64,000 nucleotides of DNA from Christiangramia gaetbulicola. Lineage in GTDB: Bacteria; Bacteroidota; Bacteroidia; Flavobacteriales; Flavobacteriaceae. Below are positions 9,955-40,763 of the stretch, piece by piece (positions within the stretch are counted from its first letter, which is position 1; each line of letters starts with the position of its first letter). The notes under the pieces were generated by a model, which made no database searches, was not told the origin of the DNA, and was given only the letters and a program-made list of their open reading frames with translations. The DNA is taken from positions 1 to 64,000 of the forward strand of contig NZ_QBKQ01000005.1 in NCBI RefSeq assembly GCF_003054225.1, written 5' to 3'. A program made the position numbers and the translations under genes.

Positions 9955-11319
9955 TTAATCTCTACTTAAAATACTCTTGAATTCATCTGAGTTAAACATT
10001 GCATCTGCATCGTGACCTACATTTGGAACTTCAATCTTCTCCTGGTTGTTTTCAGCATAGAAGGTTTCAAAAAACGTAAATATGTTCCTTCCTCTTTCGA
10101 GCCTGTTAGAACCTAAAAGGATAGCGGCGCAATCTGTGGTGTTCAAGGTCCCTTCGGTATTTGTATCATCGCTACCTAATAGATATATAGTATTCCGCGT
10201 TATTTGTTGCTGTAACAGGTCTTCCTGGGTCATCCCATCTAAATATGCCGGAGCGGTTTCATAACCATAAGGCCAGAAATCATATCCTGTGCAATCTGTA
10301 GGGGTATAGAATTCACTGCTGCTTTCATTGTAGCGCCTGCCATCAGGATAATAGAAATACTGGTTATTGGCCACTACATATTGAAATTCATAATCGGGAT
10401 AAGCCGCTTCAGAAGTATTTGCAAATGCATAATGTTGTACCATAGCGGCACCAGAACTATGCCCGGCAAACTTTATCTCCTTCAGGTTAGGGAATTTTTC
10501 CGTATTCGTAAGATAGTCTACCATTTCATCCAGAACGCTAAAGGAACTAATAGCATTACCGCTATTGCCAGAATTAGCTCCTTCGCGCCAGTTATTGTCC
10601 CAGAACAATTCCCCATCTGCGGCATTGACCTCTTCTTTAAATTCCGGAGAAATAATAAGAGTGTTGTTAAGTTTTCCCAGCTCTCCAACAGCATTGGTCA
10701 TATATCTGAAATATTCATCTGCATCCCGGTTTTGTCCATGGATCACGATCACTACTTCTTCGATCTCCTCCCAGGTAAATTCCTGGTCTGAAACAATATC
10801 ATAAGAACTATAAAATTCAACAGCAGCTCCTTCGGCAACTTCAATCTTCTCCATGCAATCTGCCGTAGCCGAGGTACAGGGAACTTTGGTTTCTTCAACT
10901 TCACTGGTAGTGCTGAAACTACCCGAAAAACCGGTATCCAGAGATTCTCCGTTTTCACCCAAGGCAATTTGACCTACCGTAATGGTATAGGTTGATCCGG
11001 GATTTAAACCAGAATAGGAAATCACCGCCTTGGAGCCTGCATTACCCAGGCTGCTGGTATAATTTGCTTCTCCCTGACCATCTGAAAGCGAAAGTGCTTC
11101 CTCAAAAGCTTCTGAGTCCAACGTATGGGAAAATGCAATTTCGATAGTACCTGTTAAAGCCACATTAGACAATCCATCGCTAAGGTTACTGCCATTCACC
11201 GTCGCAGAAAAAACATTTAAGGTGTCTATAGAGTCATCATCATTGCTACAACTGCTTAGGAATAAAGTAAGAACTAAGGCAGTTAATATTTGTATGCTAT
11301 ATTTCATTCTTTTCATCAT
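9955..11319 (-). CDS. Surface lipoprotein alpha/beta hydrolase with N-terminal Ig-like (Big_5) domain
   Basis: The 454-residue protein has a lipobox (LSSCSNDDD). A Big_5-type Ig-like domain covers roughly residues 30-140. An alpha/beta hydrolase domain starts at VVIVIHGQNRD, which gives the oxyanion-hole HG. The nucleophile elbow is GHSSGA and the probable catalytic His lies in VPNVGHDADAM near the C-terminus. The reaction should be ester or peptide-like hydrolysis outside the outer membrane or in the periplasm. It is the last gene of the run that starts with susC at 20152 and lies 75 bp behind another Big_5 lipoprotein. Together with the SGNH hydrolase upstream it suggests that esters are processed by this locus. 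The true substrate is unknown. Confidence 0.8.
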   Translation of the reverse strand: MMKRMKYSIQILTALVLTLFLSSCSNDDDSIDTLNVFSATVNGSNLSDGLSNVALTGTIEIAFSHTLDSEAFEEALSLSDGQGEANYTSSLGNAGSKAVISYSGLNPGSTYTITVGQIALGENGESLDTGFSGSFSTTSEVEETKVPCTSATADCMEKIEVAEGAAVEFYSSYDIVSDQEFTWEEIEEVVIVIHGQNRDADEYFRYMTNAVGELGKLNNTLIISPEFKEEVNAADGELFWDNNWREGANSGNSGNAISSFSVLDEMVDYLTNTEKFPNLKEIKFAGHSSGAAMVQHYAFANTSEAAYPDYEFQYVVANNQYFYYPDGRRYNESSSEFYTPTDCTGYDFWPYGYETAPAYLDGMTQEDLLQQQITRNTIYLLGSDDTNTEGTLNTTDCAAILLGSNRLERGRNIFTFFETFYAENNQEKIEVPNVGHDADAMFNSDEFKSILSRD

Positions 11320-11394
11320 AATCTTTTTTATGGAGGCGGCATGAAATAAAATCAGACCTATCTGATACTTACTTCAAGCAACCTCCAGCTAATT

Positions 11395-13182
11395 CTATTC
11401 ACAAATTGGATAAACACAGGCTGAACTCTGAGTAGAGGTAGAGCTATCTGCACAGTCAATTCCACCAGTGGTCCAGTCGCCATTTATCTTATAGGCCCAC
11501 GATCCGGAGTATTCCCATACTTCGCCAGTCCCGTCTACGTCTGCATCACCATAGGTTTCAATAACATTATCGCCATTGAAAAGTTCTACGCCATCATCCC
11601 CATTCTGATTCATAGAATCTGACTCAAAAACATGCTCAAATTCATCTGTACAATCTCCAAAATAAGCAGCAATAGTTCCCGGTTCTCTGGCTAATAAGAT
11701 ATCGTCACCTTCTTCAACAGAAATTTGAGGGAAGTTATATTCAACTCCGTCTGTTCCACCACCATTATTGGTGATACCAACACCGTAGATACTTAAATCC
11801 TCAATATCCTTATTGGCTCTAAAATGAACAGCTTTTCCACCATTGGTTCCGCTGCCATCCCAAAGCAAGGCGAGAACCCCTTTAATTTCCAGAGCTTCCT
11901 TACAAATTGGGTATGGGCATGGTGAATTGCTATTTAATGTTCCGCCTACGGTACAATCCACACCCCCGGTACTCCATTCTCTACCTACTTTATAAGCCCA
12001 CGATCCTGAATATTCCCAAGCCTCGCCGGTACCGTCTACATCTGAATCTCCGTAAACCTCTATTATGGTATCACCACTATACAATTCTATCGCATCATCA
12101 CCATTCTGGCTTATAGAGTTATTGGATTCAAGGATCTGCGTAAACTCACTTCCGCAGTCTTCAAAATAAGCGGTCAATGCTGCCGGGTTACGGGCAACTA
12201 ATACGTTATCACCTTCTGAAAGTGAAATGGCAGGGAAAGTATATTCCGGTCCGTCTGTTCCGCCACCATTATTGGCGACCCCAAGACTATAGATACTAAG
12301 ATCTGCAATATCTGCATTGGCAACTACGTGAACCGCTTTACCATCGTTGGTATCTGAACCATCCCAGGTAAGTGCAAGTACTCCTTTTAGAGAAAGCGGA
12401 GGTAATTCCTCGGTAATATTGATCTCGGCCAAGGTATTATCATTATCTGTTGCATTCTCTATGGAAGCAATTGAAACAATAATAGATTCATTATCGTCAT
12501 TTTCCTGGTCTGGAATAGAAGTGATCTCGAAAGTTGTGGAAAGTTCACCCGCCGGGATAGTTAATTCTGAACTACTGGCGGTGTAGTCTGTATCAAGTAC
12601 AGCAGATCCTGAAAAATCAAGATTTATGATCACATCATCTTCAGTATCCTTATCCAGTTCGGCAGTTACGATTACGGTCTCCGCACTTTCCTTGATTACA
12701 TCTGAAGCAGCGCTAAGCTTGATCACCGGTGGAACGTAAGCTGCGGTCTTAAAGTTGAAATTGATGGGACTCGTTAAGGCCTCACCATTGGCCCCATAAG
12801 CACCCTCAGGTATATTTAAGGTATAAGTAGTTTCATAATCGAAACGCGCACCCGGGGTGATAATAACCGTAGAATTCGAATTAGTGAATTCAAGGTCATA
12901 GTCTGCCGCTCCATTAGGGGAACTAAGTTGTAGGGCAGCGCTTAATTCATCTGTGTTCAAACTATGAGAAAAGATGAGCGTTAATGGAGATTCTACAGGA
13001 ATATTGTCTGCACCTTCTTCCAGGGCGTCTTCACCAATATTTTGTTTAAGCAGGCGAAGAACTCCGTCATCTGTGATCGTTACATCATCATCATTAGAGC
13101 ATGCAGCCAGTGCGATGATAATAAATATCAAAACCCCTGAACTCAAAAGCGCTCTTGTTTTAGATTTTATGAATGTTTCCAT
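11395..13182 (-). CDS. Lipoprotein with Big_5, Calx-beta and two tandem lamin-tail-like domains
   Basis: The 595-residue product has a lipobox (LAACSNDDD). A Big_5 Ig-like domain covers about residues 35-150 and a Calx-beta domain about 155-255 (DTDYTASSS, TIPAGE). Two copies of a ~165-residue unit fill the rest, each starting KGVLAL(T/L)WDGS and containing NNGGGTDG, QNGDD and DVDGTGE(A/V)WEYSGSWAYK. The repeat resembles the lamin-tail-like domains found in secreted flavobacterial nucleases and esterases; I am not sure of the family name. No catalytic motif is visible, so surface binding of substrate is the likeliest role. The gene follows the DASS symporter gene by 28 bp in the same operon. 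Confidence 0.75.
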   Translation of the reverse strand: METFIKSKTRALLSSGVLIFIIIALAACSNDDDVTITDDGVLRLLKQNIGEDALEEGADNIPVESPLTLIFSHSLNTDELSAALQLSSPNGAADYDLEFTNSNSTVIITPGARFDYETTYTLNIPEGAYGANGEALTSPINFNFKTAAYVPPVIKLSAASDVIKESAETVIVTAELDKDTEDDVIINLDFSGSAVLDTDYTASSSELTIPAGELSTTFEITSIPDQENDDNESIIVSIASIENATDNDNTLAEINITEELPPLSLKGVLALTWDGSDTNDGKAVHVVANADIADLSIYSLGVANNGGGTDGPEYTFPAISLSEGDNVLVARNPAALTAYFEDCGSEFTQILESNNSISQNGDDAIELYSGDTIIEVYGDSDVDGTGEAWEYSGSWAYKVGREWSTGGVDCTVGGTLNSNSPCPYPICKEALEIKGVLALLWDGSGTNGGKAVHFRANKDIEDLSIYGVGITNNGGGTDGVEYNFPQISVEEGDDILLAREPGTIAAYFGDCTDEFEHVFESDSMNQNGDDGVELFNGDNVIETYGDADVDGTGEVWEYSGSWAYKINGDWTTGGIDCADSSTSTQSSACVYPICE

Positions 13183-13210
13183 TATTTAGTTTTTATAGAG
13201 TTAATCTGGT

Positions 13211-14689
13211 TTATGGTTGTTCTATTGAGAATTGTTCGCTAAATCCAAAAGGATCGAAATCCCAAATAAATGGCAGCATGAAATAAACCATGGCTGTTAG
13301 GAATATGATCGAGATAAGGTTCATCCAGATCCCTGTTCTCACCATATCCGGGATCCTTAAGTATCCCGAGCCAAATACCACTGCATTTGGAGGAGTTGCC
13401 ACCGGGAGCATAAATGCGCAGGAAGCAGCCACCGTAGTTGCTACTAAAAGCATATAGGGATTCAGGTCAAGTTTAAGGGCGATAGGAGCCAGGATAGGCA
13501 GTAACATCGCCGTAGTCGCTAAATTTGAGGTTAACTCTGTAATAAAGTTAACGCTAAAAATTACGATAAGGATCAACAGTAATAATGGTAATGCCTGTAA
13601 CAATGTCATTTGCATGCCGAACCACTGGGCCAGGCCTGTAACTTCAAATCCAGATGCCAGGGCCATACCACCTCCAAATAGAAGGATGATCCCCCAGGGC
13701 ATTTTTACGGCTTCTTTCCAGTGGATAATACGTTTTCCTTCCTTGCCAGAGCTTAAGGTGAAAAGGGTAATTCCCGCGACCATCGCGATAATCGTATCGT
13801 CTATACCCGGCAGGAACTTTTCCAGGATAAAAGACCTGGAGATCCAGCAGATAGCCGTGATCACAAAAACGCTCAATACTATTTTCTCTTCACGTTTCAT
13901 TGGGCCCAGTTCCGCGATCAATTTTTGGATTTCCTTCTTACCTCCGGGAAATTCTTTCTGTTTAAAATTGAAAGCGATATGGGTGATATAGAACCAGGAA
14001 ACGATCAATAAGGTTATGGAAATTGGTAAACCGAATTTCAACCATTGAAAAAAGCTGATGTCTATATCATAGATCTCCTGTATATAACCTGCAAAAACCA
14101 GGTTAGGAGGAGTACCAATTAAAGTGGCTATACCTCCAATGGAAGCACTATATGCAATACTTAACATCAGTGCTTTTCCGAAGATCTTATTCTCATCCTT
14201 TGCAGTTGAAGGATTATCCTTTAGCTGGGATACTATAGACATACCAATAGGCAACATCATTACCGAGGTGGCCGTATTCGAGATCCACATAGATAAGAAT
14301 GCGGTTGCCACCATAAACCCAAGAATAATGTTCCTCACATTGGTTCCTATGAGTTTGATGATATGCAGGGCTATTCTTTTATGGAGATTCCATTTTTCTA
14401 TAGCAATGGCCAGGATAAATCCGCCCATGTATAGGAAGATATATTTATGACCATAGGATGCCGTCGTCGTTGAGAGGTCTAAGGCTCCGGTTAAAGGGAA
14501 TAGCACAATGGGTAATAACGCGGTAACAGCTATAGGGACTGCTTCGGTTACCCACCATAATGCTATCCACAGGGTTGCGCTTAAAACATCCCAGGCTGGC
14601 GCCGGCATTCCTTCTGGTCCACCTATGCTTTGTAAAATTATGAATAGTAAAGGGCCAAGGATCAGAAATATGTTTTTGTTCATTTTCAT
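13211..14689 (-). CDS. DASS/SLC13 family sodium:dicarboxylate or sulfate symporter
   Basis: This 492-residue inner-membrane protein has about 11-12 helices. It carries the two SNT-type signatures of the DASS family: SNTATSVMMLPIG near residue 140 and ELTSNLATTAMLLPI near residue 390. Members take up succinate, malate, citrate or sulfate with sodium. The start overlaps the stop of the SGNH hydrolase gene as ATGA, so the two are translationally coupled. Placed in a SusCD operon with two hydrolases, it probably imports a carboxylate released from the substrate. Sulfate is the alternative. Confidence 0.88.
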   Translation of the reverse strand: MKMNKNIFLILGPLLFIILQSIGGPEGMPAPAWDVLSATLWIALWWVTEAVPIAVTALLPIVLFPLTGALDLSTTTASYGHKYIFLYMGGFILAIAIEKWNLHKRIALHIIKLIGTNVRNIILGFMVATAFLSMWISNTATSVMMLPIGMSIVSQLKDNPSTAKDENKIFGKALMLSIAYSASIGGIATLIGTPPNLVFAGYIQEIYDIDISFFQWLKFGLPISITLLIVSWFYITHIAFNFKQKEFPGGKKEIQKLIAELGPMKREEKIVLSVFVITAICWISRSFILEKFLPGIDDTIIAMVAGITLFTLSSGKEGKRIIHWKEAVKMPWGIILLFGGGMALASGFEVTGLAQWFGMQMTLLQALPLLLLILIVIFSVNFITELTSNLATTAMLLPILAPIALKLDLNPYMLLVATTVAASCAFMLPVATPPNAVVFGSGYLRIPDMVRTGIWMNLISIIFLTAMVYFMLPFIWDFDPFGFSEQFSIEQP

Positions 14690-29014: not shown

Positions 29015-29479
29015 ATGGCAGAATTCACGATAACTATCAACGGAAAAAAGCAGACCCTGGATGTAGATCCAACTACTCCTTTGCTTTGGGTTTTAAGAGA
29101 CCATCTCAAAATGGTTGGAACAAAATATGGCTGCGGAATTGCTCAATGCGGAGCCTGTACAGTGCATTTTAATGGTTCTGCCGTAAGATCCTGCCAGTTG
29201 CCCATTTCATCGGCTGCGGGTAACGAAATAACGACTATCGAAGGACTTTCTGAAAACGGGGATCACCCGGTTCAAAAGGCCTGGCTGGAACATGATGTTC
29301 CCCAATGTGGTTATTGCCAGGCGGGACAGATCATGTCGGCTTCAGCATTGCTGAAAAAGAATCCGAGCCCCAGCGATGAAGAAATTGAAAATGCCATGAA
29401 TGGTAATATTTGCCGCTGCGGAACCTATACCAGAATTAAGGCTGCTATCAAAACAGCTTCAGATTCCCAAATAGCCTAA
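29015..29479 (+). CDS. [2Fe-2S] subunit of a molybdenum hydroxylase, IorA-like
   Basis: The 154-residue protein is the small electron-transfer subunit of a xanthine-oxidase-family enzyme. A plant-type ferredoxin cluster is ligated by [12 protein letters not shown] plus a Cys in VRSCQLP. The second cluster lies in the helical domain, CGYCQAGQ and NICRCGTY. It has no signal of its own and may be carried across the membrane with the large subunit. The large subunit follows 26 bp downstream. Two-subunit IorAB-type enzymes lack an FAD subunit and usually pass electrons to a cytochrome c. Confidence 0.92.
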
Positions 29480-29505
29480 TCTTAGTTGAATTTAAATCGA
29501 GAAAA

Positions 29506-31782
29506 ATGAGTAAAGTAAAAACAGGAATAGGCAGAAGATCTTTTATAAAAAGCGTTGGAGTTGCCAGTGGCGGATTGATCATCGGTTTCAACTGGCTGGC
29601 GTGTAAAAGAGCTACAGAAGAAGGTGGAGAGGAAATGGCTATGCAAATGCCAGATGAGTGGTTCGAACTTAACGGTTATTTAAAGATTGGTGATAATGGA
29701 ATTGTAACCATCTATTCTCCAAATCCTGAAATTGGTCAGAACGTAAAGACTTCCATGCCCATGATCGTGGCTGAGGAACTTGACGTGGACTGGAATAATG
29801 TCATCGTAGAACAGGCACCTTTAAACACCGATATTTTCACCAGGCAGCTTGCCGGTGGTAGTCAGTCTATCCGTCAGGGATGGGAATCATTGAGAACAGC
29901 TGGTGCGACAGCCAGACAAATGCTTCTTACCGCTGCTGCTAAACAATGGGAAGTTCCGGCTTCTGAACTAACTGTTGAAGAAGGAGTGATAAAACATAAG
30001 GGAAGCGATAAGACCATGGGATATGGCGAGATCGCGAAAGCCGCCGCCCAGGTTGAAGTTCCGGAAGAAGTGGAATTAAAGGATAATGACAATTTTAAAA
30101 TAATAGGGACTTCCCGAAAGAATGTAGACGCGAAGAAAATTGTGACCGGACAGCCTCTTTATGGCCTGGATACTTATAAAGACGGAATGCTCATCGCGAT
30201 GCTTGTACAACCACCAGCTTTCGGGATGGAGTTTAAATCCATGGATGCCGATAAGGTTAAGGAAATGCCCGGTATCGTCGACGTTTTTACCATAGATACC
30301 TATCCGGAGGATATGGAAAAAGAATGGAGTGATGTGGCAGCCTTTTCAAAACTAGTGGTAGTGGTTGGTGAATCTACCTGGCAGGTGATGCAGGCTAAGA
30401 AAGAATTAAAGGTAGAATGGGACTTAAATCCAAAATTGACCGAACAGATACAGATTCTGGAGAAATCGGCTGGTATGGCTGGAGCAACCGGCCTCGAAAG
30501 CAGTGATATTCATAATACGCTGATGGCTGAGGTCGGTGAGAAAAAATCTGAAGTGGTAAGAAAGGATGGCGATCCGGAAAAAGCATTTAAAAATGCCGCC
30601 CGGGTTATCGAGCGTTCTTACACTTGCCCGTTCCTTGCGCATAATTGCATGGAACCTATGAACTTTTTCGCTGATGTTACCGGTGATAAGGCCTTGTTAT
30701 TAGGTCCTATTCAAACACCTGAATATGCTGAAAAGAGTGTAAATAAACGCCTTGGCTTCGATCTTGAAGATATCGATATACAGATGACTAGAATGGGAGG
30801 TGGTTTTGGCCGTAGACTTTATGGTCACTTCCTGGTGGAAGCTGCCGTCATTTCTCAGAAAATGGGAAAACCGATCAAACTGGTATATTCTCGTGAAGAT
30901 GATATGACCAATGGTGTATATCGCCCGGCTTATCATGTAAAATATCGTGCGGCGCTGGATGCGAACAATAAGCTAACAGCTTTTCATGTGAATGCGGGAG
31001 GAATTCCGGAAAGTCCGCTTTTCGCCAATCGTTTTCCGGCAGGAGCTATCGACAATTATCTTGCAGAAAGCTGGAGCCTTGAATCAAATATTTCAACGGG
31101 AGCTTTCAGAGCTCCACGTTCTAATTTCATTGCGGGGGCAGAGCAGTCATTTCTAGATGAACTGGCAGAAGAAATGGGACAGGACCCAATTCAGTTCAGG
31201 CTGGATATGCTAAAACGGGCAGAATCTGATCCTGTTGGTGAAGAGAATGATTACGATGCTAAAAGATATGCCGGTGTTCTTAAGGTCGCTAGGGATAAAG
31301 CTGGATGGAATAATGGCAGTTCTTCTCAAAGTCGCGGGGTTTCGGCATATTACTGCCATAATTCATACGTGGCGCAGATCCTTGATATGACGGTGAAAAA
31401 TAATGAACCCTTGATAGATAAGGTTACCTGTGTGGTAGACTGCGGAATCGTGGTGAATCCAGATGCTGCTAAAAATATGGTGGAAGGTGGAACCATCGAT
31501 GGAATTGGTCACGCACTTTATAGTGAGATGACCTTTAAAGATGGAGCTCCGCAGAAAAGCAATTTCGACACTTATAATTTAATTCGTCACAAACAGGCAC
31601 CGAAAAAGATCGATGTGCATTTTATAGATAATGGTATAGATCCTACCGGTTTGGGAGAGCCGCCATTTCCACCTGTTCAGGGTGCCTTGGCTAATGCCCT
31701 TTATAAAGCGACCGGTAAAAGATTCTATAAACAACCTTTTATTAATGAATTGAAAAATGCGGGTAGCGATTTGAAAACCTAA
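29506..31782 (+). CDS. Molybdopterin-binding large subunit of a molybdenum hydroxylase, IorB-like
   Basis: The 758-residue protein starts with a twin-arginine signal (GRRSFIKSVGVASGG) ending near NWLAC, so it is exported folded and may be lipid-anchored. It carries the xanthine-oxidase-family molybdopterin domains: GGGFGRR in the first cofactor loop, GAFRAPRSN in the second, and GLGEPP with the base-catalytic Glu near the C-terminus. The enzyme should hydroxylate an N-heterocycle or aldehyde in the periplasm. The isoquinoline 1-oxidoreductase name is only the nearest type; the substrate is unknown. Its cofactor is expected to be the MCD form, which fits the MocA-like gene downstream. Confidence 0.9.
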   Translation: MSKVKTGIGRRSFIKSVGVASGGLIIGFNWLACKRATEEGGEEMAMQMPDEWFELNGYLKIGDNGIVTIYSPNPEIGQNVKTSMPMIVAEELDVDWNNVIVEQAPLNTDIFTRQLAGGSQSIRQGWESLRTAGATARQMLLTAAAKQWEVPASELTVEEGVIKHKGSDKTMGYGEIAKAAAQVEVPEEVELKDNDNFKIIGTSRKNVDAKKIVTGQPLYGLDTYKDGMLIAMLVQPPAFGMEFKSMDADKVKEMPGIVDVFTIDTYPEDMEKEWSDVAAFSKLVVVVGESTWQVMQAKKELKVEWDLNPKLTEQIQILEKSAGMAGATGLESSDIHNTLMAEVGEKKSEVVRKDGDPEKAFKNAARVIERSYTCPFLAHNCMEPMNFFADVTGDKALLLGPIQTPEYAEKSVNKRLGFDLEDIDIQMTRMGGGFGRRLYGHFLVEAAVISQKMGKPIKLVYSREDDMTNGVYRPAYHVKYRAALDANNKLTAFHVNAGGIPESPLFANRFPAGAIDNYLAESWSLESNISTGAFRAPRSNFIAGAEQSFLDELAEEMGQDPIQFRLDMLKRAESDPVGEENDYDAKRYAGVLKVARDKAGWNNGSSSQSRGVSAYYCHNSYVAQILDMTVKNNEPLIDKVTCVVDCGIVVNPDAAKNMVEGGTIDGIGHALYSEMTFKDGAPQKSNFDTYNLIRHKQAPKKIDVHFIDNGIDPTGLGEPPFPPVQGALANALYKATGKRFYKQPFINELKNAGSDLKT

Positions 31783-31797
31783 CAGATCCTTTCAATT

Positions 31798-32136
31798 ATG
31801 AAAAAGATCAAAGTTAAATGCTGGGTTGAAGATGAAGGAGAGAAGTTTTATGGTCCCGGGCCTAACGAACTTTTGAAAAGAATACAGGAAGAAGGATCTC
31901 TTTCCAGGGCGGCTAGTAAGATGGAAATGTCCTATAAAAAAGCCTGGGAATTGGTTCAGAGATTGAATCAGCATACTGAGGAGCCTTTGGTTATTCTGAA
32001 AAAAGGAGGTCAGCACGGTGGAGGAGCAGAAGTCACTCCACAGGGTTTGGAAATAATGCGTGAGTTTGAGAATTTACAGATAAAGATCGATGAACTGGTA
32101 GACCAGCAAACCGATCTTATCAAAGTTTTAAAATAA
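31798..32136 (+). CDS. ModE-like winged-helix protein without molybdate-binding domain
   Basis: The 112-residue product matches the N-terminal DNA-binding domain of ModE/LysR-type molybdate regulators. A GPGPNELLKRIQEEGSLSRAA start is followed by the recognition helix MSYKKAWELVQRLN, then the wing GGQHGGGAEVTPQG. Full ModE also has a pair of MOP domains that bind molybdate; these are absent. It follows iorB by 15 bp and ends in a terminator. A ModE-box-like palindrome lies just beyond it, at 32179-32206. It probably controls the cofactor operon. How it senses molybdenum, if it does, is unknown. Confidence 0.85.
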   Translation: MKKIKVKCWVEDEGEKFYGPGPNELLKRIQEEGSLSRAASKMEMSYKKAWELVQRLNQHTEEPLVILKKGGQHGGGAEVTPQGLEIMREFENLQIKIDELVDQQTDLIKVLK

Positions 32137-32137
32137 G

Positions 32138-32172
32138 AATTTAAGGCTTCGGATAGTCCTGAGCCTTAAATT
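32138..32172 (+). terminator. Terminator after the ModE-like gene
   Basis: An 11-bp stem AATTTAAGGCT/AGCCTTAAATT with a 13-nt loop starts two bases after the stop codon. The following T-tract is short (TTAAAT), so some readthrough into the cofactor operon is possible. Confidence 0.65.
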
Positions 32173-32178
32173 TTAAAT

Positions 32179-32206
32179 AGCGATATATACGTTTATACAT
32201 AACGCT
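32179..32206. promoter_or_regulatory. ModE-box-like palindromic operator
   Basis: The 28-bp site is an interrupted palindrome of the form AGCGnTATnTA-N6-TAnATAnCGCT (20 of 28 positions match their complement). It resembles the ModE box of Proteobacteria (CGnTATATA-N6-TATATAnCG as I recall it). It ends three bases before the ATG of the cysteine desulfurase gene that heads the cofactor operon and lies 42 bp after the stop of the ModE-like gene. Binding there would block either transcription or translation initiation. Operator function is inferred from symmetry and context. Confidence 0.65.
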
Positions 32207-32209
32207 TAG

Positions 32210-33364
32210 ATGGCAGTAAAAAAGAAAATATATCTGGATTATAATGCAACCACCCCGACAGATCAACGGGTGGTTGAAGCGATGTTGCCTTATTTTACCG
32301 AGAAATTCGGGAATGCCAGTAGTGATCATGTTTTTGGGTGGGATGCCAATGAAGCTGTTGAAAATTCCAGGGAACAGGTCGCCAGATTGATAAACTGTAA
32401 GCCAACCGGAATTACTTTTACTTCAGGTGCCACCGAAGCGGCAAACCTTGCGATATTTGGTTTTTGTAAAAGGAACAGGTCAAAAGGGAAACATATCATC
32501 ACTTGCAAAACGGAACATAAAACCATTCTAGATACTTTAAAAGCTCTGGAGAATGAAGGTTTTGAGGTCACTTATCTGGATGTAGATCTTGATGGTAATA
32601 TTGATCTTAGCGAGCTGGAGAGTGCTATTACTTCAGAAACGATTCTGGTTTGCCTGATGCTGGCAAATAATGAAACTGGCCTAATTCATCCTATGTATGA
32701 GATCGAAAAAATTGTTCATTCAAAAGGGGTGAAGCTAATGAGTGACATTACCCAGGCCGTGGGTAAAATACCTGTTGATCTCAAAGCTCTGAATTTGGAT
32801 ATAGCGATCTTCTCTTCTCATAAGATCTACGGACCAAAAGGAGTTGGCACATTATATATCAACAAGAAAAATAATATCGAAATTGAACCTCAGGTTTTTG
32901 GAGGCGGACAGGAAAAAGGAATGCGCCCGGGAACCCTGAATGTTCCGGGTATCGTAGGATTTGGAAAGGCTGCCGAAATTGCTTTTTCTGAAATGGAAGA
33001 AGAGTCAGTAAGAATCTCGAAACTGAGAGATAAACTGGAAGGACTTTTAATGGAATCATGTGTTTGTAAAGTCAATTCCATGAAAGCAAATCGATTACCA
33101 AATACGACCAATATCTCCTTTGAGAATATTGACTGCAACCAACTTCTCAGAAAATTGAATAGCCTGGCGGTTTCACGTGGGTCGGCCTGTACATCTAATA
33201 TTATTAAACCTTCGCATGTTTTAAAAGCGATGGGTTTAAGTGATGAACAGGCGTTATCCTCTTTAAGGATCAGTTTAGGAACAAATACCAGCCTTTCAGA
33301 CATTGAATTCGCAGCTGAAGAAATCAAGAAAACCGCAAACCAGTTAAAAAGAGCTGAGGTATGA
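32210..33364 (+). CDS. NifS-like cysteine desulfurase of the molybdenum cofactor operon
   Basis: The 384-residue PLP enzyme takes sulfur from L-cysteine onto its own active-site cysteine as a persulfide. The PLP lysine is K205 in FSSHKIYGPKG and the active cysteine is C327 in SRGSACTSN. Family features TSGATEAAN and NNETG are present. It is the first gene of the operon and overlaps xdhC by four bases. In Rhodobacter capsulatus a NifS-type protein provides the terminal sulfur of the cofactor for xanthine dehydrogenase via XdhC. The same role is the best guess here, together with supplying sulfur to MoaD. General Fe-S assembly is less likely given the context. Confidence 0.88.
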   Translation: MAVKKKIYLDYNATTPTDQRVVEAMLPYFTEKFGNASSDHVFGWDANEAVENSREQVARLINCKPTGITFTSGATEAANLAIFGFCKRNRSKGKHIITCKTEHKTILDTLKALENEGFEVTYLDVDLDGNIDLSELESAITSETILVCLMLANNETGLIHPMYEIEKIVHSKGVKLMSDITQAVGKIPVDLKALNLDIAIFSSHKIYGPKGVGTLYINKKNNIEIEPQVFGGGQEKGMRPGTLNVPGIVGFGKAAEIAFSEMEEESVRISKLRDKLEGLLMESCVCKVNSMKANRLPNTTNISFENIDCNQLLRKLNSLAVSRGSACTSNIIKPSHVLKAMGLSDEQALSSLRISLGTNTSLSDIEFAAEEIKKTANQLKRAEV

Positions 33365-34515
33365 GAGAACTGGATACCATCATAAATCAATATGAACTTC
33401 TTAAAAATGAAGGGACGCAAAGCGTTCTGGCTACCGTGGTTCATGTGGAGGGATCATCCTATCGTAGAGCCGGTGCACGAATGCTGGTTGATGAATTTGG
33501 GAATATCACAGGTGCCATAAGTGGCGGATGCCTGGAAGGGGATGCGCTGCGCAAGGCACTGCACGCATTGCACCAGGAGAAAAATAAACTGATCACTTAT
33601 GATACCAGTGATGAAGATGACGCGATAATTGGAGCCCAGTTGGGCTGCAATGGTATCATCCAGGTGCTGTTCGAACCTTTAGATTATCAGGATACATTGA
33701 ATCCCTGCGAGTTGCTGAAAAAGGTGATTGCTCAAAAGGATGCTTTGGCGATCGTAATTCAGTTCAATTTGGATAAAAACAAAGTGCAGCATGGAACTTC
33801 TCTATTAATTGATGAAAAATCAAACATTTGGGGTAAGAAACTGAAGCAGGAATTACTGAAACAAATTCTGAAACAATCTCAATTGGTGCTGAAGGAAAAC
33901 CGATCTGCTTTTGCGGAGCTAATATCAGACAAGGAGGCGAGCCATATTTTTATTCAGAATTATCAGCCTCCGGTAAAGCTCGTTATTGTTGGAGCCGGGA
34001 ATGATGCTCAGATCCTGGCACAACAAGCCGATCTGCTTGGCTGGGATGTGATCGTGACCGATGGCAGGCCCACTCACGCGAATAAAGAACGGTTTACCAG
34101 TTTCTGCCAGGTAATAGTCTCGAAACCTGAGAAAACACTGGAGAATATCAAAATAGACCAACGCAGTTGTTTTGTACTGATGAGTCATAATTACAATTAC
34201 GATCTCGCAGTTTTAAAACTTTTGCTTAATGAGCAAAAAGTACCTTATATCGGGATCCTTGGTCCTTTGAAGAAATACCAGAGAATGCAGGGTGATCTTA
34301 AGGAAGATGGATTTGAATTAAAAGATGAGATTCTGAAAAAGATCCATGCTCCGGTAGGACTGGAGGTTGGAGCGGAAACCCCTGCGGAGATCGGATTATC
34401 GATCTTATCTGAAATCCAATCAGTTCTAACAGGGAAAAGTGCAAGACCACTTAAGGAGAAGTCTACGCCAATTCATGAAAAAATTCATTCTCAGTTTAAG
34501 GAAATAAAGATTTGA
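33361..34515 (+). CDS. xdhC: XdhC-family molybdenum cofactor insertion protein
   Basis: The 384-residue protein has the N-terminal XdhC/CoxI domain (SVLATVVHVEGSSYRRAGA, followed by GAISGGCLEGD). A C-terminal Rossmann domain begins VKLVIVGAGNDAQILAQQA and includes YIGILGP. XdhC proteins bind the finished cofactor, hold it during sulfuration and pass it to the hydroxylase apoenzyme. The start overlaps the desulfurase stop as ATGA, which fits the known XdhC-desulfurase partnership. It is probably shared by the IorAB-type and PaoABC-type enzymes on either side. Confidence 0.92.
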   Translation: MRELDTIINQYELLKNEGTQSVLATVVHVEGSSYRRAGARMLVDEFGNITGAISGGCLEGDALRKALHALHQEKNKLITYDTSDEDDAIIGAQLGCNGIIQVLFEPLDYQDTLNPCELLKKVIAQKDALAIVIQFNLDKNKVQHGTSLLIDEKSNIWGKKLKQELLKQILKQSQLVLKENRSAFAELISDKEASHIFIQNYQPPVKLVIVGAGNDAQILAQQADLLGWDVIVTDGRPTHANKERFTSFCQVIVSKPEKTLENIKIDQRSCFVLMSHNYNYDLAVLKLLLNEQKVPYIGILGPLKKYQRMQGDLKEDGFELKDEILKKIHAPVGLEVGAETPAEIGLSILSEIQSVLTGKSARPLKEKSTPIHEKIHSQFKEIKI

Positions 34516-35120
34516 GGAATTATAAAAAAATAGGAGTTGTAATTCTTGCTGCCGGTTCTTCGAGTCGGCTTGGGTATCCTAAGCAATTGGTGGAGTTCAA
34601 AGGAAAACCAATGCTGCAGCATATTATAGATGTGGCAGATTCTTTTGAATTTGAGACCGAAGTGCTGGTGCTTGGTGCCGCCTCAGATGAAATAAAAGAA
34701 AAGATCGAACCGAAAAAGTTTGAAATCCTTTTTAATGAAAACTGGCAGGAAGGAATGGCTTCAAGTATCAGGACAGGTCTGGAGAGGTCTCTGGAAAAGG
34801 AACAAGATCTGGAGCATTTACTTATCCTGCTTTCAGATCAGCCGTTTGTAAGTAAGGAAAGAATTGATGCCTTGATAAAAGAACAATTAGCCGGGAACAG
34901 TGAGGCGACTTTTTCAGAATACGACGGAGATGTTGGTGTTCCTGCGATTTTTTCAAGTTCGGTTTTCCCGTATTTGAAAGAATTGAAAGGAGATCTTGGA
35001 GCTAAAAAACTGATCTATGATAAGAAAATTGAGTTCAGGACGGTAAAATTTGAAAAAGGGAATTTTGATGTGGATACTAAAGAAGATGTGGAATTATTAA
35101 AGAAGCTAGAGAAAGAATGA
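34512..35120 (+). CDS. mocA: MocA-like molybdenum cofactor cytidylyltransferase
   Basis: The 202-residue enzyme has the nucleotidyltransferase start VVILAAGSSSRLGYPKQL and the metal-binding LLSDQPFV. The LAAG-RLG-PKQL pattern is that of MocA (CTP, giving molybdopterin cytosine dinucleotide). MobA (GTP) usually reads GGxSxRMGxDK. MCD is the cofactor of PaoABC- and IorAB-type hydroxylases, which agrees. The start is a TTG overlapping the xdhC stop; the next in-frame ATG would remove the P-loop. GTP specificity is the alternative, but motif and context favour CTP. Confidence 0.87.
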   Translation: MRNYKKIGVVILAAGSSSRLGYPKQLVEFKGKPMLQHIIDVADSFEFETEVLVLGAASDEIKEKIEPKKFEILFNENWQEGMASSIRTGLERSLEKEQDLEHLLILLSDQPFVSKERIDALIKEQLAGNSEATFSEYDGDVGVPAIFSSSVFPYLKELKGDLGAKKLIYDKKIEFRTVKFEKGNFDVDTKEDVELLKKLEKE

Positions 35121-35353
35121 AAGTGACGGTAAAATATTTTGGAATGATTGCCGAACTTGCGGGAAAAACCGAAGAGTTGTTGGAGGTTCCTTCAGGAACA
35201 TCGGCTATAGAGCTTAAAGATCGACAAGTTCGTAGATATCAGATTCAGGATCCTGAATCTGTACAGCTGGCGGTGAACCAGAATTTAGATAACAAAGTAG
35301 AATTAAATGAAGGCGATGAGGTGGCTTTTTTGCCGCCATTCGCAGGAGGATAA
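35117..35353 (+). CDS. moaD: Molybdopterin synthase small subunit MoaD
   Basis: The 78-residue ubiquitin-fold sulfur carrier ends in FLPPFAGG. The terminal Gly-Gly is adenylated by MoeB and then carries a thiocarboxylate that MoaE uses to sulfurate precursor Z. The start overlaps the mocA stop (ATGA) and the stop overlaps the moeB start (TAATG). It lies directly before its activating enzyme. Confidence 0.92.
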   Translation: MKVTVKYFGMIAELAGKTEELLEVPSGTSAIELKDRQVRRYQIQDPESVQLAVNQNLDNKVELNEGDEVAFLPPFAGG

Positions 35354-36363
35354 TGAGATACGACCGACAAATAAAATTAGATGAAGTTGGAGTTCCGGGT
35401 CAGGAAAAACTCCGCAATGCCAGTGTACTTATTGTTGGCGTTGGCGGACTGGGTTGTCCTGCCGCGCAAAATCTTGTTGGAGCCGGGATTGGCAGGCTCG
35501 GGCTTATAGATCACGACCGGGTTTCGCTTTCAAATCTTCATCGGCAGTTATTGTTTACTGAGGAAGACCTTGGAAAATCTAAAGCTTTGGTGGCTAAATC
35601 AAGACTTCAGCAGATCAATTCAGAAGTTGAAATTGATGTTTTTGAGGAACCTTTAAGTATAGATAATGCGGAAAACCTGTTTCAACTTTATGATATTATC
35701 ATTGATGGAACCGATAATTTTGAAACAAAATACCTGATAAACGATGCCTGTATTCTAACCGAAAAACCATGGGTCTATGCTTCGATCTATAAAAATGAAG
35801 GCCAGCTCTCAGTATTTAATTATCAGGAGGGACCTTCTTACCGATGCCTTTTTCCGAAGACTACCAGGCAGAATATAAGTTGTGAAGCAACCGGAGTACT
35901 TGGCGTTACCCCGGGGATCCTGGGAACCATGCAGGCCGCTGAAGTTTTAAAAATGATACTTGGTGCCGGAAATGTACTTTCGGGAAAATTGAAACTGATA
36001 AATATTCTATCCGGGCAGGATCAATTATTAAATATTTCAAAGAGAGTAGAAGAGATCGAAAAGATCAAAAATGAAGGAATTATTCCGGTGAGGATAGAAT
36101 GCAAAATTTCTGACGAGTCAAAGCTCTACCTGGATATCCGGGAAATATTTGAACAACCAAGGGTCAATTCTGGAAAGGTTCTTCAAATTCCGCTTAGTGA
36201 GCTGGAAGACCGTTTAGAAGAAATTCCGAAGCAGGAAGAGGTATTGGTTTTTTGCCAGTCGGGAAAAAGAAGCAAGAAAGTAGTGGATTTATTAAAAGCA
36301 CAATTCGAATTCAATAACCTTATAAATGTTGAAGGAGGAGTAGAAACAATAATTGATGGTTAA
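35353..36363 (+). CDS. moeB: MoeB-type MoaD-activating enzyme with C-terminal rhodanese domain
   Basis: The 336-residue E1-like enzyme adenylates the MoaD C-terminus. The nucleotide site is VGVGGLGCPAAQNLVGAGIG, and SNLHRQLLF, the DGTDNF loop and CEATGVLGVTPGILG follow. Residues ~255-336 form a rhodanese-like domain with active-site loop CQSGKR, so it may load sulfur onto MoaD itself, as MOCS3 and MoeZ do. The zinc CxxC pair of E. coli MoeB is not intact: the first pair reads SYRC, and only one Cys is seen at the second site. The desulfurase in the same operon is a likely sulfur donor. Confidence 0.88.
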   Translation: MRYDRQIKLDEVGVPGQEKLRNASVLIVGVGGLGCPAAQNLVGAGIGRLGLIDHDRVSLSNLHRQLLFTEEDLGKSKALVAKSRLQQINSEVEIDVFEEPLSIDNAENLFQLYDIIIDGTDNFETKYLINDACILTEKPWVYASIYKNEGQLSVFNYQEGPSYRCLFPKTTRQNISCEATGVLGVTPGILGTMQAAEVLKMILGAGNVLSGKLKLINILSGQDQLLNISKRVEEIEKIKNEGIIPVRIECKISDESKLYLDIREIFEQPRVNSGKVLQIPLSELEDRLEEIPKQEEVLVFCQSGKRSKKVVDLLKAQFEFNNLINVEGGVETIIDG

Positions 36364-36370
36364 AATTAAA

Positions 36371-36484
36371 TCCTGAACCAAGTTCTGGGGGACGTTAAGA
36401 AAGCACTACGTCATGCTGAACTCGTTTCAGCATCTAATAGAAGTTAATATAATCGTCAGACCCTGAAATAAATTCAGGGTGACG
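36371..36484. repeat. Composite intergenic hairpin repeat (REP-like)
   Basis: Three short imperfect palindromes lie in the only sizeable gap inside the cofactor operon. They are a CCTGAAC/GTTCTGG element, ATGCTGAA/TTCAGCAT at 36413-36433, and CGTC-ACCCTGAA/TTCAGGGT-GACG at 36454-36484. Sequences of the type GTCATGCTGAAC and ACCCTGAAATAAATTCAGGGT are, to my knowledge, dispersed intergenic repeats in Flavobacteriaceae. They may attenuate or stabilise the operon mRNA. Confidence 0.65.
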
Positions 36485-36514
36485 CTAAATGAGTATGAGG
36501 TTAAATAGCATTTA

Positions 36515-36958
36515 ATGGATAAGAAAAAACCGAAAAAAGTATTTGTACAGGGTGCCATTCCGCCGGAAAAGATCGCTAACTCAATTGCGAATCATCAGTC
36601 CAAAACCAATATTGGAGCACATAGTATTTTTCTGGGCCAGATCAGGGCCGATGAAATTGATGGGAAAACAGTGAGCGCGATAGACTATTCAGCATATGAA
36701 GAAATGGCTGAAAATGTTTTTCATGAGATCAGGGAGGCGGCATTTGCGAAATTCGACATTACCTGCGCGCATATTTATCATAGCCTGGGCGAGGTAAAAA
36801 CCGGGGAAATTTGCCTTTTCGTTTTCACTTCTTCGGCGCACAGAAAGATTGCCATAGAGGCCTGCAACTATTTTGTAGAAGAAATTAAGGCCAATGTGCC
36901 CATTTTCGGAAAAGAGATTTTCGAAGATGAAACTCATCAATGGAAAGTGAATAAATAG
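36515..36958 (+). CDS. moaE: Molybdopterin synthase catalytic subunit MoaE
   Basis: The 147-residue protein has the MoaE pattern: GAHSIFLGQIR near the start, then IDYSAYEEMAENVF, HIYHSLGEVKTGE, and the C-terminal EIKANVPIFGKEIFE. This last carries the catalytic lysine region (VPIFGKE; MoaE usually reads VPIWKKE). With MoaD it inserts two sulfurs into precursor Z to form molybdopterin. It is separated from moeB by the hairpin-rich 150-bp gap and directly abuts the moaC fusion gene. Confidence 0.92.
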   Translation: MDKKKPKKVFVQGAIPPEKIANSIANHQSKTNIGAHSIFLGQIRADEIDGKTVSAIDYSAYEEMAENVFHEIREAAFAKFDITCAHIYHSLGEVKTGEICLFVFTSSAHRKIAIEACNYFVEEIKANVPIFGKEIFEDETHQWKVNK

Positions 36959-37855
36959 ATGGTTGATATAACGCATAAAATAAGTACACTTCGGGAAGCC
37001 ACCGCCATTGCTGTGGTACGGACTTCCAGCGAAGAGACGGTTAAAGCGATCAGGGAAAATAAAGTTCCGAAAGGGAATGTCTTTGAAATGGCGAAAGCCG
37101 CAGGATTATTGGGAGTAAAGAAAACGCCTGAGTTGCTTCCGGACTGTCATCCGTTACCAATCGAGTACACCGGAATTGATTACGAAATTAACGGACTCGA
37201 GATACAGATCTCGGTTAGGGTTAAGACGATCTATAAGACCGGAGTTGAGGTGGAGGCGATGCACGGCGCCAGTATTGTAGCCCTTACGATGTATGATATG
37301 CTGAAACCTATCGATAAAAATGTAGAGATCGGGACCATCCGGCTTCAGAATAAAAAAGGTGGAAAATCATCTTTTAAGGTCAATTCTGAAGGCTTAAATG
37401 CAAAAATCGTGGTGTGTTCAGATACCATTTCAAAAGGTCAGGGAGAAGATAAAGCCGGCAAGGCCATCGCTTCAAAACTGAAAGAACAGGGAATTGAATC
37501 TGAAATTAGCATTATTCCAGATGAACCTGAAGAAATAAGATTGGCTCTGAAGAATGCCGGAACTGATATGGTCATTTTCACCGGAGGAACAGGAGTCGGC
37601 CCTCGTGATTTAACTCCGGAGACTATAGAACCCTTGCTGGATCTAAAGTTGAAAGGGGTAGAGGAGCAAATGAGAAATTATGGTCAGCAGCGTATGCCAT
37701 ATGCGATGTTATCAAGGTCTGTAGCTGGGTTAATGGACGGAAAAGTAATACTGGCATTGCCAGGATCAACCAAAGGAGCAGCAGAATGCATGGATGCGAT
37801 ATTTCCGCATGTATTGCACGTTTTTAAAGTGATAGAAGGAAAGAGACATGATTGA
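36959..37855 (+). CDS. moaC: Bifunctional MoaC-MogA/MoaB fusion
   Basis: The 298-residue protein joins two steps of cofactor synthesis. Residues 1-~140 are MoaC, which forms cyclic pyranopterin monophosphate with MoaA: MVDITHK, KGNVFEMAKAAGLLGVKKT, CHPLPI and EVEAMHGAS. From about residue 147 (KIVVCSDTISKGQGEDKAG) it is a MogA/MoaB domain, which adenylates molybdopterin: FTGGTGVGPRD and LPGSTKGAAEC. The fusion joins an early and a late step and is known from other Bacteroidota. It abuts moaE and overlaps moaA by 8 bp. Confidence 0.92.
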   Translation: MVDITHKISTLREATAIAVVRTSSEETVKAIRENKVPKGNVFEMAKAAGLLGVKKTPELLPDCHPLPIEYTGIDYEINGLEIQISVRVKTIYKTGVEVEAMHGASIVALTMYDMLKPIDKNVEIGTIRLQNKKGGKSSFKVNSEGLNAKIVVCSDTISKGQGEDKAGKAIASKLKEQGIESEISIIPDEPEEIRLALKNAGTDMVIFTGGTGVGPRDLTPETIEPLLDLKLKGVEEQMRNYGQQRMPYAMLSRSVAGLMDGKVILALPGSTKGAAECMDAIFPHVLHVFKVIEGKRHD

Positions 37856-38840
37856 AGAAAAGAAGAAAATAGTAGATAATTTTGGACGGCCGCATACCTA
37901 TCTCAGGATCTCCCTGACCGACAGGTGCAATCTTCGTTGCTTTTACTGCATGCCTGAAGAAGGGATCGAACTCATGGAGAAATCCAATATCATGACTCTG
38001 GAAGAGATCATTGATCTGGCGAGGACATTCCGTGACCTTGGGGTGGATACGATCCGACTCACCGGCGGGGAGCCTTTGGTGCGAAAGAATTTTGGCTACC
38101 TGTTAGAAGAACTGGCAAAACTGGGCGTCACTTTAAAGATCACCACCAACGGTATCATGCTGGATAAATATCTTGATCTTTTTCAGAAGATTGGCTTAAA
38201 AAAGATCAATCTCAGCCTGGATACTCTGGATAAAGCAAAGTCGGTTTTTATAACTAAGCGTGATTATTTTGACCGGATCTGGAAGAATATTCAGCAGGCT
38301 TTAGAGATGGATATGGAAGTCAAACTGAATATCGTACTTATCAAAGGCGTTAATGACAACGAGATCAATGATTTTATAGAGCTTACCAAAAACAAGAAGC
38401 TTAAGGTCAAATTTATCGAGTTTATGCCTTTTAAGGGCAATAAATGGGACTGGAGCAAGGGAGTTTCGGAAAAGGAAATTCTTGATATAGTTTCAGAAAA
38501 ATTCGGGAAAGTTGAGGAATTGAAAAACCCGAAGCATAGCACATCCAATAATTTTAAGGTGAAAGGGCATACAGGAAGTTTCTCGATCGTGAGTACGATT
38601 ACCAATCCGTTCTGTTCTGAGTGCAATAGAATTAGGGTTACGGCTGATGGGAAAATGAAGAACTGCCTTTTCGCTAATTCTGAAACCGATCTGCTTACAC
38701 CACTTAGAAATGGTGAGGAAATGGATAATATTATCATTAATGCGATCAAAACCAAGAAATATTCCCGGGATGGAATGGATGTGAAAATGGATCCCGAGCA
38801 TTACGAAAAGAACAGGTCAATGATATCAATAGGAGGCTAA
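37848..38840 (+). CDS. moaA: GTP 3',8-cyclase MoaA
   Basis: The 330-residue radical-SAM enzyme starts the pathway by cyclising GTP. The N-terminal cluster is at C27, C31 and C34 (CNLRCFYC), followed by the SAM-binding LTGGEP. The C-terminal cluster is in CSECNRIRV with a third Cys in MKNCLF. The protein ends in the Gly-Gly (SIGG) needed by MoaA. It overlaps the moaC fusion gene by 8 bp and its stop overlaps the moeA start (TAATG). Confidence 0.96.
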   Translation: MIEEKKKIVDNFGRPHTYLRISLTDRCNLRCFYCMPEEGIELMEKSNIMTLEEIIDLARTFRDLGVDTIRLTGGEPLVRKNFGYLLEELAKLGVTLKITTNGIMLDKYLDLFQKIGLKKINLSLDTLDKAKSVFITKRDYFDRIWKNIQQALEMDMEVKLNIVLIKGVNDNEINDFIELTKNKKLKVKFIEFMPFKGNKWDWSKGVSEKEILDIVSEKFGKVEELKNPKHSTSNNFKVKGHTGSFSIVSTITNPFCSECNRIRVTADGKMKNCLFANSETDLLTPLRNGEEMDNIIINAIKTKKYSRDGMDVKMDPEHYEKNRSMISIGG

Positions 38841-40006
38841 TGGTAACAATCGAAGAAGCGTTAAAGATCATTCAGGATCAATCTGTAAATCTAAAAACTG
38901 AAAACCGTCATCTTGAGAATTGTCTCGGATTTTCCCTTTCCGAAAATATCACTGCTCCATTTGATATGCCTTCATTCGACAATTCCGCGATGGACGGTTA
39001 TGCTCTCTGTGGAATCCATTCAGAATATAAAATTGTAGGGGAGGTTGCTGCCGGTGATATGAGCGAGATTGAATTGAAAGAAGGGGAGGCCGTTCGCATT
39101 TTTACCGGGGCAAAAGTACCTGGAAAAACTACCGCGGTAATAATGCAGGAAAAGGTCTCTATTCATGGAGATAAACTACTTCTTGAGACAGAACCAAAAG
39201 AGGGCCAGTGTATTCGCAGAAAAGGAGAAGAATTAAAAGAAGGTCAGCTTGTATTTGAAAAAGGCTATAGCATTACTCCCGCAGGAATCGGTTTGATTGG
39301 AAGCCTGGGAATTGAAAAAGTTGAGGTCTTTAAAAAGCCGGTCATAAATTTAATTACTACCGGGAATGAATTGATACAACCCGGAAAGCCAAAAGCCGTA
39401 GGCCAGATCTTTGAATCCAATAGCTATGCGCTTACTGCTGCCTGTGAGAATTTCGGTTTTCACTGCAAGGATAAAAAACAGATCGCAGATGATTTTGAAC
39501 CTATAAAATCAGGGGTCATAGAATCCCTGGAAACTGCAGATGTACTGATCCTTTCCGGAGGAATTTCGGTTGGAGATTATGATTTTGTGAAACAGGCGCT
39601 GGAAGAAAATGGAGTAGAGGAACAATTCTATAAAGTTTTTCAGAAACCGGGAAAACCGCTGTATTTTGGAAAGAAAGGAGATAAGTTTGTCTTTGCCTTA
39701 CCGGGAAATCCTGCATCTTCACTTAGTTGTTTTTATGTTTATGTACTTCCTTTTCTTTATCAGTTAAGTGGTTCAGATAAAAATGGGCTCGAAAGATATT
39801 CTTTTCCTATTTCGCATGATTTTGAGAACAGGGGAGACCGGCCTTCATTTTTAAAAGCGAAGATCAGTAATTCTAAGGTGGAAATTTTGAACGGGCAGGG
39901 TTCTTCGATGATACAATCGATGGCGCTGGGGAATGCCCTGGCATTTATTGATGCTGAAACTTCGGTTAAAAAAGGGGATCCTATAGAATGTCTTCTAATT
40001 TCATAA
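38840..40006 (+). CDS. moeA: Molybdopterin molybdenumtransferase MoeA
   Basis: The 388-residue enzyme inserts molybdate into adenylated molybdopterin. Features are MPSFDNSAMDGYAL near the start, RIFTGAKVP, the molybdopterin-domain GISVGDYDFV and LPGNPASS, and a C-terminal beta-barrel domain IV. It follows moaA with overlapping stop and start and precedes a TauE/SafE permease gene by one base. With the MogA domain it completes the insertion step in this operon. Confidence 0.95.
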   Translation: MVTIEEALKIIQDQSVNLKTENRHLENCLGFSLSENITAPFDMPSFDNSAMDGYALCGIHSEYKIVGEVAAGDMSEIELKEGEAVRIFTGAKVPGKTTAVIMQEKVSIHGDKLLLETEPKEGQCIRRKGEELKEGQLVFEKGYSITPAGIGLIGSLGIEKVEVFKKPVINLITTGNELIQPGKPKAVGQIFESNSYALTAACENFGFHCKDKKQIADDFEPIKSGVIESLETADVLILSGGISVGDYDFVKQALEENGVEEQFYKVFQKPGKPLYFGKKGDKFVFALPGNPASSLSCFYVYVLPFLYQLSGSDKNGLERYSFPISHDFENRGDRPSFLKAKISNSKVEILNGQGSSMIQSMALGNALAFIDAETSVKKGDPIECLLIS

Positions 40007-40007
40007 T

Positions 40008-40763
40008 ATGCCCTTAGAATACCTCCCATTTATCTTTTTTCTGATTGCTTTATTCTACAGTTCTGTTGGCTTCGGGGGAGGTTCCAGTTACCTGGCAATT
40101 CTTAGCCTGGTGATAACCGATTTCTTTGAAATTCGCTCTACCGCGCTTATCCTGAATATTTGTGTGGTTACGATAGGCACCATCATTTATATTAAAAATG
40201 GGGTTTTAAAACCAAAACTGATCTGGCCATTTTTTGTTCTAAGTATTCCAATGGCATATTTAGGAGCACAGATTAAGCTATCTCAAACCATATTTTTCCT
40301 CATCCTGGGAAGCGCTCTGATCTTGGCTGGGATCTTTATGAGCTTAAGATTTGTAAAGGGTAAACTTGAATCTCAGGAGTTCTCTAAACCCAAGAAATTC
40401 ATTCTCGGAGGAAGCATTGGTCTATTGTCAGGAATTTCAGGAATTGGTGGAGGTATTTTTCTTTCACCGGTATTAAATCTTCTGAAATGGAAGGATCCCA
40501 GGATCATCGCTTCTCTGGCTTCGGTTTTTATCCTGGTGAATTCCGTAGCAGGACTTATTGGTCTCAATGTTGCCGGAACTTTTCGACTGGATCTTGATCT
40601 TGTAATAAAACTTATTATTGCAGTAGTACTTGGCGGAAGCCTCGGTTCATATCTTTCCAATAAGAAGTTCAACCTGAAATTCCTGGGAATCCTTACCGCC
40701 ATTCTTGTTATCTATGTTGGCTTAAGACTTATCCTATTAAATGGATTCGGAATCAGGATATAA
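40008..40763 (+). CDS. TauE/SafE family anion permease
   Basis: The 251-residue inner-membrane protein has about eight helices and the two repeated glycine-rich motifs of the family, GFGGGSSYLAIL and SGISGIGGGIFLSPVLNL. Family members move sulfite, sulfoacetate and other organosulfur anions. It begins one base after the moeA stop, so it belongs to the cofactor operon, and the window has no modABC-type transporter. A role with molybdate or a sulfur oxyanion is a reasonable inference, but no substrate motif is visible. Confidence 0.87.
   Translation: MPLEYLPFIFFLIALFYSSVGFGGGSSYLAILSLVITDFFEIRSTALILNICVVTIGTIIYIKNGVLKPKLIWPFFVLSIPMAYLGAQIKLSQTIFFLILGSALILAGIFMSLRFVKGKLESQEFSKPKKFILGGSIGLLSGISGIGGGIFLSPVLNLLKWKDPRIIASLASVFILVNSVAGLIGLNVAGTFRLDLDLVIKLIIAVVLGGSLGSYLSNKKFNLKFLGILTAILVIYVGLRLILLNGFGIRI

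Follow-up and report, generated by a model that had tools for sequence, protein, structure and literature searches.

In the stretch of DNA from the marine flavobacterium Christiangramia gaetbulicola analysed here (64,000 nucleotides of contig NZ_QBKQ01000005.1, hereafter the window), an interrupted palindrome lies between a gene for a short ModE-type protein and a presumed molybdenum-cofactor (Moco) operon that opens with a cysteine desulfurase gene (csd). This arrangement raises the question of whether the palindrome is a ModE operator, and of how such a site could work when it ends almost at a start codon.

The palindrome and its gene setting

The 28-bp palindrome, AGCGATATATACGTTTATACATAACGCT, starts 42 bp past the modE stop codon. 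Three bases separate its end from the ATG at 32210, exactly as the original prediction had described it. Its symmetry is imperfect, with A/A and A/C at two mirrored positions, which that prediction had implied by writing 'n' at these places. Its occurrence is far beyond chance, since a scan of the window allowing up to three mismatches gave the palindrome as the sole match, and dinucleotide shuffles gave an average of 0.01. From the same kind of scan, the claim that no further copy is present upstream of iorA, modE or paoA was also found to hold (Table 1). Its layout had been called very close to that of the ModE operator, and it indeed agrees with the published ModE consensus, ATCGNTATATA-N6-TATATANCGAT (PMC545781, PMC2700814). 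A palindrome of the CGNTATAT-N8-ATATANCG form thus precedes molybdenum genes, and adjoins the gene for a ModE-type DNA-binding protein.

We have extended the scan to the whole 3.64 Mb genome, where the 28-bp palindrome is again the sole perfect match, with one other place found at three mismatches. The 24-bp core also has one perfect site only; the five sites with one mismatch are all situated within coding frames, and the sites with two mismatches (153, against 164 for a reversed control) are no commoner than expected from the control. These one- and two-mismatch sites were therefore rejected as second genomic copies, and the genome appears, as judged from its sequence, to contain a single putative operator of this kind.

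Table 1. Features of the modE-csd region in the window.
Feature	Position	Strand	Basis
iorA and iorB (two-subunit molybdenum hydroxylase), 5' of modE, no box before them	29015..31782	+	ORFs, domains, motif scan
Short ModE-type winged-helix protein, 112 aa, presumed operator ligand, without the Mop/TOBE half	31798..32136	+	Pfam HTH_1, TIGR00637, PDB sequence matches
A+T-rich hairpin past the modE stop, possible iorAB-modE terminator	32138..32172	+	Strong in closest relatives only
Candidate -7 promoter element, TAAATTTT(A)	32167..32175	+	Conserved columns; consensus PMC9723704; inferred
ModE-box-like putative operator, 28-bp interrupted palindrome	32179..32206	.	Motif scans and csd-type conservation
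24-bp core of the palindrome, CGNTATNT-N8-ANATANCG	32181-32204		
Alternative -7 candidate within the box, TACGTTTA	32188..32195	+	Few csd-type members; leader would be ~10 nt
Cysteine desulfurase (csd), opening gene of the operon presumed to be controlled	32210..33364	+	ORF and domain matches
Rest of the presumed operon: xdhC, mobA, moeB-like (ThiF), moaE, moaC/B-like, moaA, moeA, TauE/SafE-family transporter	33361..40763	+	ORFs, domain matches, order kept in relatives

The hairpin listed in Table 1 was not called by a simple terminator scan.

Conservation of the box and its co-occurrence with modE

The original prediction had proposed to judge the palindrome by its conservation in relatives that share the gene order. 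The core box is located 0-10 bp 5' of the first Moco gene in all 18 csd-type loci, and every genome with the iorAB-modE-csd order, plus one from another genus (G031), has the core without mismatch 0-10 bp upstream of csd. The spacing between modE and the box varies, as does the hairpin, and in one locus (L069) about 270 additional bases are found between modE and an unmoved box. The palindrome is thus kept in every examined relative of the same gene order despite its variable surroundings, and passes the proposed test. Across this set, the ModE identity goes down to 57%, and TTG or GTG starts are apparent in five members. Within Christiangramia, the short modE is present in 19 of 24 genomes. 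Two members of the genus (G252 and G257, loci L119 and L120) possess a moeA-type operon together with its own box variant instead of the csd type, which looks like a replacement of the entire operon; a third (G250) is devoid of modE, and its rearranged operon retains a perfect box close to moaA (L208:11103-11126).

The rest of the Flavobacteriaceae exhibit the gene order box-moeA-modE-...-moaA. These moeA-first loci comprise 78 distinct sequences, in which the gap between the box and the first ATG is mostly 6-10 nt. Since an initial family-wide pattern was too loose, with the control as frequent as the motif, a strict box pattern was used instead. Over 248 genomes, it was found in 76 of the 88 with a short modE and in 8 of the 160 without one (Fisher p 4e-41, with no correction for phylogeny, nearly all genomes being from different genera), and the reversed-pattern control was found in 15/88 and 13/160, respectively. 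The box therefore co-occurs with the ModE-type protein across genomes. Among the 12 modE-positive genomes lacking the strict box, eight have a box with one mismatch in the same place, one is of the csd type, one is truncated at the end of a contig, and in the remaining two modE is broken. In one genome (G118) the Moco operon is apart from modE, and still has a box 4 bp 5' of moeA. For the modE-negative, Moco-positive genomes checked, seven of eight have no box before the Moco genes, and among the nine Moco loci without modE in eight genomes, a box is found only in the above-mentioned G250. None of the five other boxes examined, namely those in the modE-negative G129, G060, G247 and G191 and one far from modE in G127, precedes a Moco gene.

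The box comes in two variants (T/C or A at position 3), which go with two modE subfamilies. G059 was also observed to have an additional short modE (L100:5614-8699), which possesses a box of its own and is divergent from a molybdopterin oxidoreductase gene.

Predicted promoter overlap and proposed mode of action

The -7 element of Bacteroidota is TAnnTTTG at -12 to -5 (PMC9723704). At box positions 4-11, TAnnTTT(G/A) is present in 71 of the 78 moeA-type boxes, 60 of them with the exact TTTG form; it always points gene-ward, and the mirrored reading was never found (0/78). Positions 8-11 are also far more conserved than the spacer that follows them. Such one-sidedness would not be expected from a purely symmetric operator, and the moeA-type box therefore seems to be operator and promoter in one, with a predicted leader of median 17 nt.

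In the csd-type loci, the stretch of the box that holds the -7 element in the moeA type has changed. All members but one have TTT(A/G) at -9 to -6 before the box, and the flanking bases and the hairpin vary. In the window, the TTT at 32172-32174 falls in these conserved columns (T 94%, 100% and 100%, then A 94%), and the -7 candidate itself is imperfect, being TTTT or TTTA, not TTTG. From this upstream candidate, transcription is predicted to start at about 32179-32180, at the edge of the box, giving a leader of ~30 nt. The alternative candidate inside the box is not conserved in Christiangramia. With the -7-like element situated just upstream of the box in Christiangramia and within it in the rest of the family, transcription is predicted to begin at the box or inside it, giving leaders of ~10-31 nt. 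A -33 element was not recognisable in the loci examined; it was likewise not identified in F. johnsoniae (PMC7366714).

How ordinary, then, is an operator this close to a start codon? The 5' leaders of F. psychrophilum have a median length of 24 nt, with 5.5% of them leaderless (PMC9723704), and those of B. thetaiotaomicron have a median of 32 nt (PMC7366714). Because 5' leaders are short, a box near the start codon is ordinary for this group. The view that the position is odd, with a bound protein covering the ribosome-loading region, is thus not supported, given the short leaders (PMC9723704) and the -7-like element just upstream of or inside the box. The leaderless mRNA suggested along with it can also be dispensed with, since short leaders account for the position of the box and the predicted start is at or inside it. 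Flavobacterial leaders do not rely on a Shine-Dalgarno sequence.

On computational evidence, the box is present and conserved, accompanies modE, and keeps a fixed position and orientation. We consider it very likely that the adjacent short ModE-type protein has its DNA operator in this palindrome, which would overlap the promoter of the Moco operon or the point where its transcription starts. Due to this location, a ModE-type dimer bound on the box would lie across the -7 region or the earliest transcribed nucleotides and obstruct RNA polymerase, so that the box would act as a repressor site much like the lac operator. The left half of the box would include the -7 element TAnnTTTG in most of the family, and in Christiangramia this element would be situated just upstream, with the box extending over about +1 to +25. 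Negative autoregulation would result in moeA-type operons, where modE is the second gene behind the box; in the type seen in the window, modE would have been relocated downstream of iorAB, where it would no longer control itself. We infer that the short ModE binds the box and represses the operon, and that this repression is lifted when Moco or molybdate runs short.

The same box could in principle serve activation, as molybdate-ModE does activate the moa operon moaABCDE in E. coli (PMC2408646). Yet the box overlaps the predicted -7 element in the moeA type, or covers about +1 to +25, and these are normally polymerase-blocking positions, making an activating site improbable here. We hold it to be quite improbable, too, that the box is read by another regulator or is promoter sequence only, with the adjoining modE being incidental. 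Genomes with a short modE and no close box do exist, since in G127 and several others of its genus (loci L148, L223-L226, L228 and L231) the short modE is intact but the flanks examined contain no box. However, the presence or absence of the box tracks modE across genomes, no box is found where modE is broken (G214 and G218), and a promoter element would account for one side of the palindrome only.

The palindrome may also be imagined to act as RNA, in the form of a leader hairpin that controls translation or binds a metabolite, because it would be transcribed from an upstream start and could form a weak hairpin (-3.2 kcal/mol). Against this, pairing is not kept in the csd-type loci (positions 3/22 are paired in 8% and positions 7/18 in 23%) and no compensatory changes are seen, while in the moeA type the predicted start lies inside the box, so that the left arm would not be part of the transcript. 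Neither a Moco riboswitch nor any other RNA family was found at the site when Rfam covariance models were searched nearby, the one match elsewhere being at chance level. With pairing lost without compensation and no RNA family matched, the hairpin or riboswitch was rejected as highly improbable, and the DNA operator is the reading we retain.

A ModE-type regulator without the molybdate-binding half

The 112-aa protein has the winged-helix DNA-binding half of ModE. HTH_1 is the only Pfam domain found in it, and its match to TIGR00637 (76.2 bits, E 1.6e-21) is under the curated cut-off of 98.5. Among PDB sequences, similarity was found to 2ijl (7e-16) and, at 1e-9, to E. coli ModE (1b9m/1o7l), and SYKKAW and GGxxGGG are conserved. 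The C-terminal tandem Mop (TOBE) molybdate-binding domains are absent from this protein, and a TOBE/Mop domain search gave no match in its own and 13 related genomes (n=14), compared with matches in 12 of 14 control genomes. The regulator is thus without the known sensor half, a point missed in the original prediction. Since the sensor domain was sought and not found, we do not count the protein as a full member of the ModE family that senses molybdate, and regard the case as a variant of the ModE system. ModA was found in one of nine genomes searched.

Tentatively, Moco synthesis in Flavobacteriaceae may be under a ModE devoid of any known domain for molybdate sensing, with molybdenum status sensed another way: molybdate or Moco could be bound directly by the DNA-binding half, the protein could contact a Moco enzyme such as MoeA, or simple autorepression could operate. 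The MoeA gene is the operon neighbour of modE in most of the family. A TauE/SafE-family gene (40008-40763 in the window) is common to the Moco operons of both types, in genomes where the searches gave mostly no ModA and no TOBE domain at all; its product is a candidate oxyanion (molybdate or sulfur) transporter.

The E. coli-type ModE regulon of Proteobacteria, green sulphur bacteria and Archaea shares with the present system the core palindrome, targets in molybdenum metabolism, and a homologous winged-helix half, and the box described here corresponds to the E. coli/Geobacter ModE consensus (PMC545781, PMC2700814). It differs in that the regulator here is devoid of the two Mop domains, that the target is one Moco operon and not modABC, and that the box, near the start codon, seems to be fused to a Bacteroidota -7 element. 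DNA-binding-only ModE proteins of Desulfovibrio and D. psychrophila (PMC545781) and of Agrobacterium (2ijl) share the single ModE DNA-binding domain and an unclear sensing mechanism, called so for Desulfovibrio in 2004 (PMC545781). The Desulfovibrio sites have the consensus CGGTCACG-N14-CGTGACCG, stand before mod transport operons, and are accompanied by separate Mop proteins (PMC545781), whereas the present system retains the E. coli-type box, and the search of 14 genomes gave no TOBE/Mop domain. What sets this case apart is that a DNA-binding-only protein goes together with the classical box, that there is a single Moco target, and that the box seems to be merged with the promoter. Our literature search found no description of a ModE regulon in Bacteroidetes.

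Short modE genes are also present in other Bacteroidota, some adjoining a TonB-dependent receptor gene (L254:8013-10073, L256:8988-11639 and L252:134-2182); in L256, a ModE box with one mismatch is located ~9 bp 5' of the receptor gene. Such modE-linked receptors possibly serve outer-membrane molybdate uptake. Another locus (L258) encodes a full-length ModE with an HTH and two TOBE domains (8029-8880), and a perfect box stands ~9 bp before a gene for a 749-aa product (10983-13265) that has the look of an outer-membrane receptor and no Pfam match.

Taken together, these results give the Flavobacteriaceae a candidate molybdenum regulon that has one clearly defined target site, within a phylum whose promoters are unusual. 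The putative operator and the -7 element would be merged in a single 24-bp sequence that is kept across dozens of genera. The system also makes testable how a ModE without its molybdate-binding half reads molybdenum status, a question that dates from the Desulfovibrio study of 2004 (PMC545781).
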